A DNA stretch of 39,957 nucleotides from Planctomycetes bacterium RIFCSPLOWO2_12_38_17 (GTDB lineage Bacteria; Planctomycetota; Brocadiia; Brocadiales; Brocadiaceae), in contig MHYY01000015.1 in assembly GCA_001830285.1 (NCBI GenBank), positions 3,107-43,063 of the forward strand, given 5' to 3'. Below are positions 913 to 6,244 of this stretch, piece after piece (position 1 is the first letter of the stretch; each line of letters starts with the position of its first letter). The notes beneath the pieces are model-generated. The model had not been told where the DNA came from. It did no database searches and saw only the letters and a list, made by a program, of their open reading frames with translations. The translations under genes were made by a program, and so were the position numbers.

Positions 913-2430
913 ATGAAAAAAGAGCAATTATTAGAAAAAGACGAAGAAAAACAACATCGTTGTCCAGGTGAATCTTATACAATTAGTGATTCAATATGTA
1001 AAGGAAGGCAGAGGGTTAATTATCCTAAGTGTAAAGTATGTCTTGAGAAGGTAGAGCCGGTTCAAACACAAACAGAGTCCAGAATGTCTATGAATATCTT
1101 TAAAAGTTACGACATACGTGGGAAATACCCATCTGAGATTGATGAACATACGACAAGAAAAATTGGGGCGTCAATAGCTCAATTTTTCAAGGAAAAGAAT
1201 CAAAGTGCAAAAAATATAGTTGTTGGCAGGGACATGAGGGTTTCTTCAAGGGCACTTGCTAATTCTTTAATTGAGGGTATATGTGCGGCTGGGTTGAATG
1301 TTGTAAATATAGGTGTTGTTTCTACAGAAATGACCTATTTTGCCGTAGGTTATTATAACTATGATGGGAGTGTGATGGTTACAGCTTCTCATAATCCGGC
1401 AGAATACAATGGCTTTAAAATATGCAGGGAACGGGCGATTCCTGTTGGCTATGAAACTGGTTTGGATCGTATTGCAAAATTAACCAGGCAGTATCATCCA
1501 CCGCGCGAACAACAAGGAAATGTTACTTTCAGTGAAATTTTTAAAGATTATAAGAAACACGTGTTGAAATTTGTCAGAAATCTGAGACACCTTCGTATTG
1601 TAATAGATGCAGGTAATGGTATGGCAGGCAAGCTGATTCCTATTGTTTGTGATGGACTTCCGATTGAGATTATTCCACTTTATTTTGAACTGGATGGAAG
1701 TTTTCCCAATCACGAGGCTAATCCGCTGAAGGCTGAGAATATTCTTGATTTGCAGAATAAGGTGCGTGAGACAAAAGCGCATTTGGGTGTCGCTTTTGAT
1801 GGAGATGCCGATCGTTGTATATTTGTGGATGAGATGGGCAGGGCGATTAGTTGTGATACCATTACAGCGCTGATTGCAAGACGGATGCTTGAACAGGAAA
1901 AGGGCGCGACAATTTTATATGACCTTCGTTCCAGCTGGGCGGTGCCTGAAGAAATAAAAGCCGCCGGCGGCATACCGTATCGCGAGCGTGTAGGGCATGC
2001 CTATATGAGGGCGACACTTCGCGAAAAAAATGCAGTGTTTGGAGGTGAACTATCAGGACACTATTATTTCAGGGATAATTATTGTTCAGATTCGGGTATG
2101 ATTGCATTCCTTACGGTTCTTGATATATTGAGCACAAAACGTATCCCTTTTTCAAATGTAGTGGCACCGTTTAAAAGATATTATTCGACAGGCGAAACAA
2201 ACTTTGAAGTAGAGGATAAGGATGCAAAGATTGATGAAATTGCAAAGAAATTTTCAGATGGGAAGGTGAACTATCTTGATGGTGTAACTGTTGAATACAG
2301 TGATTGGTGGTTTAATGTTAGAAAATCAAATACAGAACCATTATTACGTTTGAACCTGGAAGGAAAGACACAGGAAATAATGGAAAAGGGTAAAAAATTG
2401 TTGATTGGTATTATTCAGGGTAAATCCTAG
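913..2430 (+). CDS. Phosphomannomutase/phosphoglucomutase with cysteine-bearing N-terminal extension
   Basis: 505 residues. From about residue 60 this is an alpha-D-phosphohexomutase of the ManB/AlgC type, interconverting hexose 6-phosphate and 1-phosphate to feed GDP-mannose or glucose-nucleotide synthesis. Visible motifs are the phosphoserine loop TASHNP (157-162, catalytic S159), the metal loop DGDADR (296-301), the sugar-binding loop GELSGHYYF (378-386) and the phosphate-binding RKSNTEP near the C-terminus. The first 60 residues are extra: they hold C17, C29, C40 and C43 and look like a small metal-binding module. The internal MSMNIFKSYDIRG would be the ordinary start, but the ATG at 913 follows a GGTGG ribosome-binding site and the frame is open, so I keep it. 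It overlaps the next gene by one base, which implies coupling. It probably supplies mannose-1-phosphate for the gmd/fcl pathway. Confidence 0.92.
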   Translation: MKKEQLLEKDEEKQHRCPGESYTISDSICKGRQRVNYPKCKVCLEKVEPVQTQTESRMSMNIFKSYDIRGKYPSEIDEHTTRKIGASIAQFFKEKNQSAKNIVVGRDMRVSSRALANSLIEGICAAGLNVVNIGVVSTEMTYFAVGYYNYDGSVMVTASHNPAEYNGFKICRERAIPVGYETGLDRIAKLTRQYHPPREQQGNVTFSEIFKDYKKHVLKFVRNLRHLRIVIDAGNGMAGKLIPIVCDGLPIEIIPLYFELDGSFPNHEANPLKAENILDLQNKVRETKAHLGVAFDGDADRCIFVDEMGRAISCDTITALIARRMLEQEKGATILYDLRSSWAVPEEIKAAGGIPYRERVGHAYMRATLREKNAVFGGELSGHYYFRDNYCSDSGMIAFLTVLDILSTKRIPFSNVVAPFKRYYSTGETNFEVEDKDAKIDEIAKKFSDGKVNYLDGVTVEYSDWWFNVRKSNTEPLLRLNLEGKTQEIMEKGKKLLIGIIQGKS

Positions 2431-3311
2431 TGAATATTTCTCCCAGTGTATTAAAAAAGTATATTTCGATTTGTTTGTTAACGACAATATTTCTTTTGCA
2501 AAATTTTGCACTTAATGAGTGTAGGTTGCTTAGAGCTGATACTCCGAAAGGTGAAGAAATTTTTGAGGTAAAATTCGAGAACGGGCAACTATCAGTAAAG
2601 CTTAAAAACTCTCCTTTGGAAAAGGTCTTAAAAGAAATCATGTCGCAAAGTGGTGCTAAAATCTGGCTTAATGATTCAATTGATACAACTATTACAATAG
2701 AGTTTCAAAACTTGCCGATAGAAGAAGGGGTTCGCAAGATTATTAAAAATAAGAACTACGCTTTTGTTTTCGCGCCGCATGAATCAAAAGACGGCAAATT
2801 GTCAATAATTAGTAGCCATAAGTCTAAAGAAACTGCTGTAAAGGGGAAGGATGTACTTTCTAAAAAACCCGTACAAAAACCAGTGCAACCTGCCGTAAAG
2901 AAAGGCAAACCAAAAAAAGAAAGGCGTTCATTTGAAGAACTTGTAAAAGAAGCTCTTGAAAATCCAAGCGCAGATAAGAGAGAAGATGCTATTATCGCCC
3001 TGGGTGAAACCAAGGATAAAAAGGCAATTGAAGTAATTTCAAAAGCGTTAACAAATGATGCCAGCGAAGATGTTCGGTTGAGTTGTATAGATGCCTTATT
3101 GGAAATTGGTGATAAAAGCGTTGTTGATGTTGTTTCCGTTGCCCTTAAGGATAAGGAACCATGGGTGCGTGAAAGTGCTGTAGAAGCCTTGGGTGAACTG
3201 GGCGGAGAGGCTGCAGTTGAGCTTATTAAAAATGCTTTAAACGACGACGACGGTTCGGTTAGAGAGCTTGCTAAGGAAATACTGGAAGAACAGGGCAAGG
3301 GTAAAAATTAA
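2430..3311 (+). CDS. Exported protein with STN-like domain and HEAT repeats
   Basis: 293 residues, GTG start overlapping the mutase stop codon (TAG/GTG sharing one G). Residues 1-37 form a basic then hydrophobic N-terminus consistent with a signal peptide or membrane anchor. Residues about 48-125 resemble an STN/secretin-N domain: KLKNSPLEKVLKEIMSQSG followed by an ITIEFQNLPIEEGVRKII segment. A lysine- and proline-rich linker follows (about 125-165). From about 178 to the end there are three HEAT or PBS-lyase-type repeats (ADKREDAIIALGE, EDVRLSCIDALLEIG, PWVRESAVEALGELGG). It is likely periplasmic and a protein-interaction scaffold. The combination of a secretin-type N domain with HEAT repeats is uncommon. 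No enzymatic function is visible, and its role in glycan export is only suggested by position. Confidence 0.75.
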   Translation: MNISPSVLKKYISICLLTTIFLLQNFALNECRLLRADTPKGEEIFEVKFENGQLSVKLKNSPLEKVLKEIMSQSGAKIWLNDSIDTTITIEFQNLPIEEGVRKIIKNKNYAFVFAPHESKDGKLSIISSHKSKETAVKGKDVLSKKPVQKPVQPAVKKGKPKKERRSFEELVKEALENPSADKREDAIIALGETKDKKAIEVISKALTNDASEDVRLSCIDALLEIGDKSVVDVVSVALKDKEPWVRESAVEALGELGGEAAVELIKNALNDDDGSVRELAKEILEEQGKGKN

Positions 3312-3329
3312 AAATTTTTATTTTTTGTG

Positions 3330-3357
3330 TTGACATTTCTAAAAAATTGTTTAATAT
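3330..3357 (+). promoter_or_regulatory. Sigma-70-like promoter ahead of the NusG paralog
   Basis: A perfect TTGACA (-35, 3330-3335) is followed after 16 bases by TAATAT (-10, 3352-3357). It sits in an AT-rich gap just after the HEAT protein and 124 bases ahead of the next start codon. Transcription would begin near 3364, leaving a leader of about 118 nt that contains the two stem-loops described separately. This is a sequence match only. Confidence 0.6.
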
Positions 3358-3360
3358 TAT

Positions 3361-3384
3361 AAACGTTTAAAAAATTAAACGTTT
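3361..3384. promoter_or_regulatory. Paired AAACGTTT palindromes at the transcription start, possible operator
   Basis: The self-complementary octamer AAACGTTT occurs at 3361-3368 and again at 3377-3384, separated by eight A/T bases (16 bp centre to centre). The pair immediately follows the -10 element and would cover the start site, a natural place for a repressor dimer pair. No regulator can be assigned from sequence; the MarR-type gene at 4518 is the nearest candidate. Confidence 0.4.
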
Positions 3385-3401
3385 GTTAATTTAAACAACG
3401 A

Positions 3402-3464
3402 TCTCTCAAATCTCCCAACTGAGAGACCCCATTCCTCCCGCAGTTCCCACTCTGCGGGAGGAAT
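3402..3464 (+). promoter_or_regulatory. Two-hairpin leader RNA upstream of the antiterminator gene
   Basis: Hairpin 1 pairs TCTCTCA (3402-3408) with TGAGAGA (3420-3426). Hairpin 2 is a perfect 13-bp stem, ATTCCTCCCGCAG (3431-3443) with CTGCGGGAGGAAT (3452-3464), and an 8-nt loop. Hairpin 2 is GC-rich but followed by TTATAAAC and not a U-run, so it is not a clean intrinsic terminator. The loop of hairpin 1 carries CTCCC that could pair with GGGAG of hairpin 2, allowing alternative folds. RfaH/LoaP-class proteins are recruited by leader DNA or RNA elements, so this is a reasonable candidate for a loading or autoregulation site. A separate ribosome-binding site (AGGAT) precedes the ATG at 3482. 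Confidence 0.55.
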
Positions 3465-3481
3465 TTATAAACTATTAGGAT

Positions 3482-3988
3482 ATGGATAGAAATATCGCAT
3501 ACTGGTTTGCCATTCATACGAGATCACGTCACGAAAAACAAGTAGATATGTTTTTAAGGGAAAAGAGTATTAATTCTTTCCTTCCGCTTATAAGAACACT
3601 AAGTCGCAGGAGAGACAGGAGAGAATTTGTTGATTTACCGCTTTTCCCTGGCTATTTGTTTGTAAATATGACCTTAAATAGCATGTATGACGTTATCAAT
3701 ACGCGTGGGGTTGTAAGGATTGTAGGTAATGATAATTTTAATCCTACGCCAATTCCGGATAAACAAGTAAATGATATAAAATTACTTTTAAGCAGCAATG
3801 TTAAATTAGACCCTTACAAATATTTAAAAAATGGCGTAAGGGTGAGGGTGAAGGTGGGCCTATTGATGGGCGTAGAAGGTATTCTTTTGAAAAGAAAGAC
3901 AAATTATCGGGTTGTTGTTTCGATAGACCTTCTACAAAAGGCTGCTTCGGCTGAAATTTCTATAGCTGATATTGAACCTATAGATTAG
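3482..3988 (+). CDS. NusG-paralog transcription antiterminator (RfaH/UpxY/LoaP type)
   Basis: 168 residues. The N-terminal NGN domain is clear: WFAIHTRSRHEKQV (8-21), then LPLFPGYLFV (52-61), the conserved polymerase-binding strand of NusG proteins. A KOW domain follows at about 119-145 (GVRVRVKVGLLMGVEGILLK). Specialised NusG paralogs of this size commonly sit at the head of long polysaccharide or secondary-metabolite operons, where they suppress pausing and Rho or intrinsic termination. That matches the position here, ahead of roughly 35 kb of co-directional genes. It has its own promoter and structured leader, suggesting autoregulation. It is unlikely to be the housekeeping nusG, because no secE, rplK or rplA neighbours are present. 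Confidence 0.9.
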   Translation: MDRNIAYWFAIHTRSRHEKQVDMFLREKSINSFLPLIRTLSRRRDRREFVDLPLFPGYLFVNMTLNSMYDVINTRGVVRIVGNDNFNPTPIPDKQVNDIKLLLSSNVKLDPYKYLKNGVRVRVKVGLLMGVEGILLKRKTNYRVVVSIDLLQKAASAEISIADIEPID

Positions 3989-4177
3989 TCAGGTTTTGAT
4001 CGGCAAACAGATAGTTTTATGGTTTAAGTTATTTGAGTTACGTAGGTTACATTAATAAAAATCATGTAACTGAGAGGGAGATACTCTATACTCACCTTGC
4101 GCTTCAAGCTGTTCCTATGACTTAATTAATGCTATTTCTATTCAAATTAGGTTGTGTTTTTCTTATATAAACGAAGT

Positions 4178-4367
4178 GGGGTATGCACTTGACGGCACCT
4201 ACAACAAAGTCTTGTATTCTCGATATCGCCCTCCAGGATGCCTTTAACCAAACCTGCATAGGGAACAGGCTCCGCAGCCACAGCCTGTTGAGCTAAGCCG
4301 CAAAAAACTCTTACTACGATGAACAGAGGTCCGTATATGCTATCAGGTGCCGTCAAGTTCATACCCC
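4178..4367. mobile_element. MITE-like non-autonomous element with 23-bp terminal inverted repeats
   Basis: The left end 4178-4200 begins GGGGTATG and ends GACGGCACCT. The right end 4345-4367 is its reverse complement with a single mismatch. The element is 190 bp. It is flanked by an 11-bp direct repeat with one difference, ATAAACGAAGT (4167-4177) and ATAAACGAAAT (4368-4378), which reads as a target-site duplication. Inside is a hairpin, AACAGGCT (4264-4271) with AGCCTGTT (4282-4289). There is no transposase. A long target duplication of this size is typical of IS4-related families, but the parent transposon cannot be named from this window. Confidence 0.7.
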
Positions 4368-4385
4368 ATAAACGAAATCATTACC

Positions 4386-4448
4386 CACCCCTTTATCCCC
4401 TCCCAGGAGGGGACTTATTGATTCCCCTCTAGAGAGGGGTCAGGGGTG
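4386..4448. repeat. Nested palindromic repeat cluster
   Basis: An outer pair CACCCCT (4386-4392) and AGGGGTG (4442-4448) encloses two hairpins: CCCCTCC/GGAGGGG and CCCCTCT/AGAGGGG. Both inner stems are GC-only at the base. Such boilerplate palindromes are common extragenic repeats in environmental genomes. It could act as a bidirectional terminator or mRNA stabiliser before the regulator gene, but there is no U-tract. Confidence 0.55.
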
Positions 4449-4517
4449 TGTTAAGAATTTGATATGCCTCGCAAACCCACACAACCAGAAAGTTTAAAAA
4501 TCCTGTAAACAAATATT

Positions 4518-5096
4518 ATGGCCAACCAGGAAGAAATCACACAATATAATATCCTCCAATCTATTGAAAATGGCGAGCAGATATCTCAACGTCAGTTATC
4601 GTCGCAGATGGGTATTAATGTTGCGTCAATAAATTTTGCGTTAAAAAAGCTTACCAAAAGAGGACTGGTGAAAATGTTGGGGGTAAATTCTAGGAGGATG
4701 AAATATATTTTAACGCCAAAAGGGATTGCAGAGAAAACGCAGCTTGCCTATAAATTTTTTGACAGAAATTTCCATTTCTATAAAGCGGTCAGAAAGGATG
4801 TTGAAAACAAAATCAATAGCATTTCCTTTAATGGTGGAAATGGGAATCGCGTTGCTCTTTATGGAGTTACCGACCTGATGGAGTTGGCATATCTCGTTAT
4901 TCAGGATAAAGAAGAGTTGGACCTTGTTGCAATCGTTGATGATGAAACGAAGATCAGGATATTTGGCTATCACGTAATAGGTATCGAGGAAATAAATACC
5001 CACACCCCCGACTTTCTCTTACTAACAAAAGAATTAGATGCTGAGAAAGTAAAACAAATACCAGACTGTACTAAAGTTGTTGATATCAGGATTTAG
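4518..5096 (+). CDS. EPS-associated MarR-type winged-helix regulator with C-terminal Rossmann-like domain
   Basis: 192 residues. Residues about 8-75 form a winged helix: [21 protein letters not shown] is a textbook helix-turn-helix and is followed by a wing and [16 protein letters not shown], as in the EPS-associated MarR family regulators. The second half (from about 112) starts [18 protein letters not shown] and continues through [19 protein letters not shown], the beta-alpha pattern of a nucleotide- or CoA-binding Rossmann unit, so it may sense a nucleotide sugar or cofactor. Ordinary members of the EPS regulator family are only about 100 residues, so this is a fusion. Only two bases separate it from gmd, so it is translated with the glycan genes and probably regulates the locus. 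Confidence 0.8.
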
Positions 5097-5098
5097 GA

Positions 5099-6244
5099 AT
5101 GAAAAGGGCGCTAATAACAGGAATCACAGGGCAGGATGGTTCTTATCTTGCAGAATTATTGTTGTCAAAAGGTTACGAGGTGCATGGTCTTATTCGTCGT
5201 GCCAGTACCTTTAACACAGAGAGGATTGATCATCTCTATCAGGACCCTCACAACCCCAATGCACGACTTTTTCTTCATTATGGGGACCTCTCTGATTCCG
5301 GACAAATAACAAATCTCATTTACAACATCCAGCCCGATGAAATCTACCATTTAGCAGCACAGAGCCATGTGCGTGTTAGTTTTGACATGCCAGAATTTAC
5401 AGGAGATATTACAGGGCTGGGGACTACGAGGTTGTTGGAGGCAGTAAGAAGGAGTGGCATTAAAACCAAATTTTATCAGGCTAGCAGCAGTGAGATGTTT
5501 GGGGACGCCCTACCTCCTCAGAATGAAGAAACCCATTTTAGGCCAAGAAGTCCTTACGCCGCAGCCAAGGTTTATGCCTACTGGATGACTGTCAACTATA
5601 GAAATGGGTACAATATGTTTGCTTGTAATGGGATACTCTTTAATCATGAATCACCAAGGAGAGGCGAGACCTTTGTTACAAGAAAGATAACACGGGCAGT
5701 TGCTAATATAGTTGCCGGAAAGCAGAAGAGGCTATACCTTGGCAACCTAGAAGCCAGAAGAGATTGGGGCTTTGCACCTGAGTATGTGGTGTGTCAGTGG
5801 TTAATGCTTCAACAGGATAAACCAGAAGATTATGTAATTGGCACAGGAGAGAGTCGCTCCGTAAGAGAATTTGTAGAACTTGCTTTCAGACAAGGTGGTA
5901 TCGAATTAGAATGGAATGGAGAAGGAGCTAACGAAAAAGGTATAGTCCATTCCTTAACTTCCAACCTCCAACTTTCAACCTCAATCAAAATCGGCGAAAC
6001 TGTTATTGAAATAGATATGAAGTATTTCAGGCCTACAGAAGTAGACTTTTTACGTGCCGATATTACAAAAGCGCAGAAAAGACTGGGCTGGACAGCAAAA
6101 GTTATGTTTGAAGAACTTGTTAAGATAATGGTTGATTCAGATATGAGACTAGCTGGTTTAAAACCGCTTGGCGAAAGTGAAAAGATTCTGAGACAAAAAG
6201 GGATTGATTGGACGGGAACAAGTTTACATCAGGTTAAGGCTTAG
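5099..6244 (+). CDS. gmd: GDP-mannose 4,6-dehydratase
   Basis: 381 residues, extended SDR. Converts GDP-D-mannose to GDP-4-keto-6-deoxy-D-mannose, the first step to GDP-L-fucose, GDP-rhamnose or related sugars. Motifs: NADP loop TGITGQDG (7-14), HYGDLSDS (60-67), AAQSHV (86-91), active-site SSSE (129-132) and Y153-x3-K157, and the family-specific [20 protein letters not shown] stretch. The length is slightly more than usual because residues about 284-296 ([13 protein letters not shown]) are an in-frame insert in a loop just ahead of the conserved YFRPTEVD region; its DNA reads like the short tandem repeats seen between genes. The insert lies away from the catalytic residues, so the enzyme may still work. 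Paired with fcl downstream. Confidence 0.96.
5948..5986 (+). repeat. Short tandem-repeat-like insert inside gmd
   Basis: The segment reads as degenerate steps of about 7-8 bases (AACTTCCAACC, TCCAACTTTCAACC, TCAATC). It adds about 13 residues that are not part of the usual GDP-mannose dehydratase sequence while keeping the frame. Similar AACCT/AGGTT-rich text occurs in the gene gap downstream and inside fcl. Confidence 0.5.

Follow-up and report, generated by a model that had tools for sequence, protein, structure and literature searches.

A conserved promoter-leader module and a separate UpxY-associated element at a Brocadiaceae polysaccharide locus

A NusG paralog heads a polysaccharide cluster in Planctomycetes bacterium RIFCSPLOWO2_12_38_17, and the sequence immediately ahead of its gene is densely structured, which raises the question of whether this structure is the signal that the paralog reads. 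The window analysed is a stretch of 39,957 nucleotides (GCA_001830285.1, contig MHYY01000015.1) from a 2.1-Mb Brocadiaceae genome of 85% completeness, to which, among named genomes, those of Planctomycetota and Candidatus Brocadiaceae are most closely related. A HEAT-repeat gene ends at 3311, and the leader fills the gap up to the start of upxY (3482–3988, + strand), whose 168-aa product belongs to the UpxY family by its NGN domain (PF02357, 81 bits) and by a score of 125.7 bits against NF033644, for which the curated cut-off is 100 bits. A gene for a 192-aa MarR-like winged-helix regulator follows (4518–5096, + strand), and then a polysaccharide and related cluster (5099–39423, + strand) with gmd, epimerase, ABC exporter, radical-SAM and sugar genes, an annotation that rests on a scan of its first genes. 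A preliminary description of the region, made from its letters, had proposed a new type of loading or autoregulatory element for the NusG paralog. Genome (G), genus (g) and family (f) labels used below are anonymous working labels.

Structure of the leader upstream of upxY

The TTGACA/TAATAT promoter of the preliminary description is confirmed as a sigma-70-type element with a spacer of 16 (3330–3357, + strand; TTGACA at 3330–3335, TAATAT at 3352–3357), and TTGACA is retained in all 10 upxY leaders and in most other leader copies. Its two palindromes 16 bp apart were likewise recovered, well above chance: AAACGTTT lies at 3361–3368 and 3377–3384 (16 bp start to start), a pair that occurs once in 40 kb at 0 mismatches, with ~0.06 expected even allowing 2 mismatches. 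With a degenerate third copy 16 bp upstream of the first (3345–3352), the sites form an array of four 8-bp units with an exact 16-bp period (starting at 3345, 3361, 3377 and 3393; 3345–3400, + strand), an arrangement seen across 31 sequences, and the promoter-plus-array pattern was found at 20 places in the 33 genomes of the family and at none in the reversed control. Read as sequence, the AAACGTTT copies are the junctions between three abutting GTTT-N8-AAAC inverted repeats (3349–3364, 3365–3380 and 3381–3396), the first of which, overlapping the −10 element, is placed as a repressor operator would be. Pairing of the two AAACGTTT copies into an RNA hairpin was also considered, and the operator reading is preferred because that pairing is broken in g10. 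Placed from the promoter, the transcription start would fall within the first AAACGTTT, so that both hairpins downstream would be transcribed.

These hairpins, described earlier as one of 7 bp and a perfect one of 13 bp, are both present and fold far better than shuffled sequence, with −32.5 kcal/mol for 3401–3465 where shuffles give −12.3 (z = −7.3; 0 of 200 shuffles as good) and z = −6.9 for 3360–3490. Hairpin 1 (3401–3426, + strand) pairs TCTCTCA (3402–3408) with TGAGAGA (3420–3426) around an 11-nt loop holding the conserved AUCWCCCAA; loop included, it is nearly invariant across copies, which suggests sequence recognition, and covariation evidence for it is scant because the sequence hardly varies. 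Hairpin 2 (3431–3464, + strand) joins ATTCCTCCCGCAG (3431–3443) and CTGCGGGAGGAAT (3452–3464) in 13 perfect pairs, a GC-rich stem around a freely varying loop. Compensatory changes occur at 4 of its stem pairs (for example CCAACAG/CTGTTGG in copies L087 and L094 and CTTCCC/GGGAAG in L092); its pairing was matched by 0 of 2000 shuffles, an equal number of double-changed pairs was reached by 51 of 2000, and the ten upxY leaders taken alone contain no compensatory pairs. The hairpin is terminator-like in form; in its own genome the tail is TTATAAAC, with no U-tract and no call by the terminator scan, and a U-run is missing in most copies and present only in g10 (T6 in L027 and L029). An alternative fold between the hairpin-1 loop and a hairpin-2 arm (CUCCC/GGGAG) was rejected, being lost in L087, L094 and the ACCC copies. 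Possible short open reading frames (such as MLHSRNQNITSA...) start just after hairpin 2 in L086, L095 and L098, ~8 nt past GGAGG; they are alike between loci and may be leader peptides or remnants. Rfam 15 gave no match above the gathering threshold in the window and sub-threshold matches only at 3200–3700 and 3990–4190, and as far as the searched libraries show, the leader module is undescribed, with no Rfam family.

Distribution of the leader and its relation to UpxY and the MarR-like regulator

The preliminary description had suggested looking for the same stems upstream of orthologous nusG paralogs, and they are present in nine relatives, where the block ahead of upxY orthologues of 68–82% protein identity is nearly letter-for-letter the same and hairpin 2 covaries as described above. 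In total the leader precedes upxY in ten genomes, comprising 10 of 10 UpxY genomes with a readable leader in g1 and g7–g10. On 98 relatives, a covariance model built from both hairpins (R1) matched strongly only within the family, in 20 of 33 genomes representing 6 of 11 genera, and gave no convincing copy outside it. A class-wide search gained no further genomes. The stems, whose lack of conservation in orthologues was to count against a function, are therefore conserved within the family; the leader is missing upstream of upxY orthologues in other families and in G010 of the same family. The weak R1 matches read outside the family (L075–L078) and those inside it (L079–L081) were unrelated GC-rich hairpins, and a dispersed-repeat reading was discarded, as the stretch is single-copy in its own genome. 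Thirty leader copies, in 20 of the 33 family genomes, were read with their surroundings. Almost all of them stand immediately ahead of polysaccharide genes in the same orientation, and those at other loci than upxY precede flippase, sulfotransferase, carbamoyltransferase, gmd, NeuB and pseB-like genes (identified by Pfam), with small nucleotidyltransferase-like genes behind L094; hairpin 2 is separated from the first gene by 88–262 nt in most polysaccharide-operon copies.

Co-occurrence of leader and UpxY across the 33 family genomes gave counts of 10, 10, 2 and 11 (both, leader only, UpxY only, neither; p = 0.067 by a Fisher test, which here and below treats related genomes as independent, so that p-values overstate independence, and draws on tables read from thresholded lists). 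Genus g11 is informative in this respect: each genome tested has one NusG-family gene, taken as the housekeeping NusG, and the old upxY locus keeps at most a few dozen codons of the gene. Across seven UpxY-less g11 genomes, hairpin 1 and the stems of hairpin 2 each average 0.96 in pairwise identity; promoter and operators average 0.83, and the hairpin-2 loop and upxY remnant 0.52 and 0.51, respectively. With hairpins 96% identical while the upxY remnant decayed, the leader is probably not simply a UpxY loading site; in g11 something other than UpxY, or a shared factor, would maintain the hairpins, and their persistence argues against an exclusive UpxY role. A truncated upxY lies behind two extra leader copies at other loci (L088 and L097). 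The leader may therefore be an ancestral upxY leader whose UpxY role was lost, and the module probably spread together with upxY; several polysaccharide loci would once have begun with a leader plus upxY, as they do in Bacteroides.

For the leader and the MarR-like gene, the corresponding counts were 18, 2, 2 and 11 (p = 2.6e-5, Fisher test, with the same overstatement of independence). The two genomes with a leader and no MarR-like gene (G029 and G031) carry damaged leaders (L097 and L098), G001 has the MarR-like gene and is missing the leader, and in G007 an array without hairpins (L149) is the promoter of the MarR-like gene, on a contig other than that of upxY. Taken together, the G007 promoter, the co-occurrence and the damaged leaders make the MarR-like protein (4518–5096) the likely candidate reader of the operator array. 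This protein shares with MarR_EPS (TIGR04176) a winged-helix N-terminus and a gene within a polysaccharide locus; unlike that family, it scores below the cut-off (73 bits against 88) and has an extra C-terminal domain, weakly Rossmann-like in a predicted fold of low confidence (pLDDT 59).

A second element downstream of upxY

An element absent from the preliminary description lies between upxY and the MarR-like gene, ~600 bases downstream of the leader (4044–4086, + strand), and consists of a hairpin, GTTACAT (4046–4052) paired with ATGTAAC (4064–4070), followed by TGAGAGGGA (4071–4079). With a model of this element (R2; match threshold E 1e-3 or better), it was found in 11 of 12 UpxY-positive and 0 of 21 UpxY-negative genomes of the family (p = 6e-8), and over 98 genomes in 24 of 34 UpxY-positive and 1 of 64 negative genomes (24, 1, 10 and 63; p = 6e-14, uncorrected for relatedness), so that 24 of the 25 element-positive genomes carry UpxY. 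The contrast also holds inside genera g4 and g9. Ten of the 34 UpxY-positive genomes are without a strong R2 match, in G019, which has UpxY, the element occurs only as a long-loop variant, and G048 has the element with UpxY not detected. A copy in G052, between unrelated genes, may be spurious.

In total, 36 copies align around TGAGAGGGA, with both sides of the stem changing and pairing kept. Among copies read with their genes, these are mostly polysaccharide genes or upxY (named from sequence starts, a few by Pfam), and in family f8 the element is directly upstream of upxY (L048, L049 and L200). At the trans loci L087, L094 and L101 the promoter-operators come first, then hairpins 1 and 2, the downstream element and the genes; many element copies have no leader. 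A TAAGT box ~17–25 nt upstream of the stem was observed in the 36 copies (as at 4020–4090), and many copies have a mini-hairpin, GGAC-GRA-GTCC, right after TGAGAG. In G009 (C1:2466700-2477000; L147 and L186) the element precedes a toxin-antitoxin-like pair and transposase pieces, not polysaccharide genes, and one of the two copies is accompanied by an operator array. Also between upxY and the MarR-like gene is a 24-nt inverted repeat, TGGGGTATGCACTTGACGGCACCT, with 96% complementary arms 144 nt apart (4177–4368), which resembles a MITE or IS remnant, and the single terminator-like site within 2400–5200 falls in a GC-rich block of inverted repeats, CCCCTCCCAGGAGGGG ... CCCCTCTAGAGAGGGG, immediately ahead of the MarR-like gene (4388–4460).

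The element at 4044–4086 resembles the ops/JUMPstart signal of RfaH in enterobacteria (PMC7819879) in being short and conserved, containing a small hairpin, occurring in several copies per genome in the leaders of surface-polysaccharide operons and accompanying a NusG paralog; unlike ops, it has no ops 12-mer, and what is conserved is TGAGAGGGA, placed behind a 7-bp stem. The earlier statement that no JUMPstart/ops text is visible was borne out, as the ops sequence GGCGGTAGCGTG has only 2-mismatch matches in the window, at chance level, and none at 4044–4086. As free RNA the element folds only modestly better than chance; its hairpin might therefore just as well work in the non-template DNA, in the manner of ops. 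Judged by these comparisons, 4044–4086 appears a better candidate than the leader for an ops-like UpxY loading site. What stands of the loading or autoregulatory element first proposed is a conserved regulatory leader with a covarying hairpin 2 and no Rfam counterpart; its assignment to the NusG paralog is doubtful, as the leader outlives UpxY in g11 and precedes other polysaccharide operons, its palindromes track the MarR-like gene, and the element that tracks UpxY lies elsewhere. The preliminary description saw a real regulatory module but most likely matched it to the wrong partner.

A two-signal locus and competing explanations

We consider it probable that the locus carries two signals, a reusable leader module with MarR-like operators at 3330–3481 and a site of UpxY loading at 4044–4086. 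The 3330–3481 block would be a promoter-leader module shared within a Brocadiaceae polysaccharide regulon. At the DNA level the MarR-like regulator would most likely bind the three operators over the −10 element and start site, and at the RNA level hairpins 1 and 2 would act as a transcribed element controlling elongation, with hairpin 1 most likely the recognition hairpin and hairpin 2 behind it a pause or attenuator hairpin. From co-occurrence and the RfaH/ops analogy, UpxY would most likely load at the hairpin-TGAGAGGGA element and from there carry polymerase through the long operon.

Part of the evidence can be read differently. The palindromes could be sites of another factor, their link to the MarR-like gene being merely shared ancestry; this would fit the phylogenetic nature of the association and the leaderless G001, and we find it doubtful given that the hairpin-less G007 array is the MarR-like gene's own promoter, far from upxY, and that leaders are damaged in the two family genomes without that gene. 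We regard it as unlikely that hairpins 1 and 2 themselves are an autoregulatory UpxY loading or antitermination site, with UpxY-less copies as relics or sites of other factors: the hairpins are kept in g11 beside an almost unrecognisable upxY remnant, and upxY orthologues of other families and of G010 do without the leader. Such a role would nevertheless account for the leader in all ten readable UpxY genomes, for a loop that is always AUCUCCCAA before intact upxY and AUCACCCAA in UpxY-less copies at the upxY locus, and for AACTGAGAG, common to the locus's own hairpin 1 and downstream element. It also has precedents. LoaP at the dfn/mln leaders of Bacillus velezensis (PMC12691694) is likewise a NusG paralog of a long biosynthetic operon whose 5' leader has a small recognition hairpin and then a GC-rich one; dfn has a UNCG-type loop and a true intrinsic terminator, whereas the present leader has its 11-nt AUCWCCCAA loop and mostly no U-tract (no UNCG tetraloop was found in the loops at 3409–3419 and 3444–3451, and the terminator scan called no U-tract terminator 3' of hairpin 2 in the locus's own leader) and, unlike LoaP/dfn, outlives its NusG paralog. 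Bacteroides UpxY, of the same subfamily, works in its own 5' leader, and there too upxY heads a capsular polysaccharide operon behind a regulatory leader (cited in PMC7819879); the present leader is set apart from those by distribution rather than by sequence comparison, as it also stands before upxY-less operons and survives UpxY loss.

Two further explanations have little to recommend them. A translational switch, in which hairpin 2 hides a ribosome-binding site (GGAGG in its 3' arm), would suit several upxY leaders with GGAGG 10–15 nt ahead of the start codon, but the spacing is 20–21 nt in this and some other leaders and the first gene is 88–262 nt away in most polysaccharide-operon copies, which makes it very improbable. 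At least as remote is a small RNA that ends at hairpin 2 and carries a C-rich UCCC loop: a promoter, ~100 nt, two hairpins and a conserved C-rich loop would be in keeping with one, but most copies have no U-tract after hairpin 2, nearly all are same-strand and immediately 5' of polysaccharide genes, and there is no Rfam match.

How NusG paralogs are targeted to their operons has been worked out in detail in only a handful of cases (RfaH/ops and LoaP/dfn), and at this locus comparative evidence separates two signals, with a natural experiment in one genus that lost UpxY and the downstream signal and kept the leader. More tentatively, Brocadiia may possess an undescribed two-tier control, in which a MarR-like regulator and its operators are combined with an attenuator leader not read by UpxY, and a class-wide hairpin-TGAGAGGGA serves as the UpxY loading site, unlike ops or dfn. 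A short, testable sequence is named as candidate UpxY loading site across the whole class, the anammox bacteria and their relatives, which are environmentally important and in which extracellular polymers drive aggregation. If the two-tier reading is true, hairpin-TGAGAGGGA would represent a new type of recruitment signal for NusG paralogs, distinct from both ops and the dfn hairpin.
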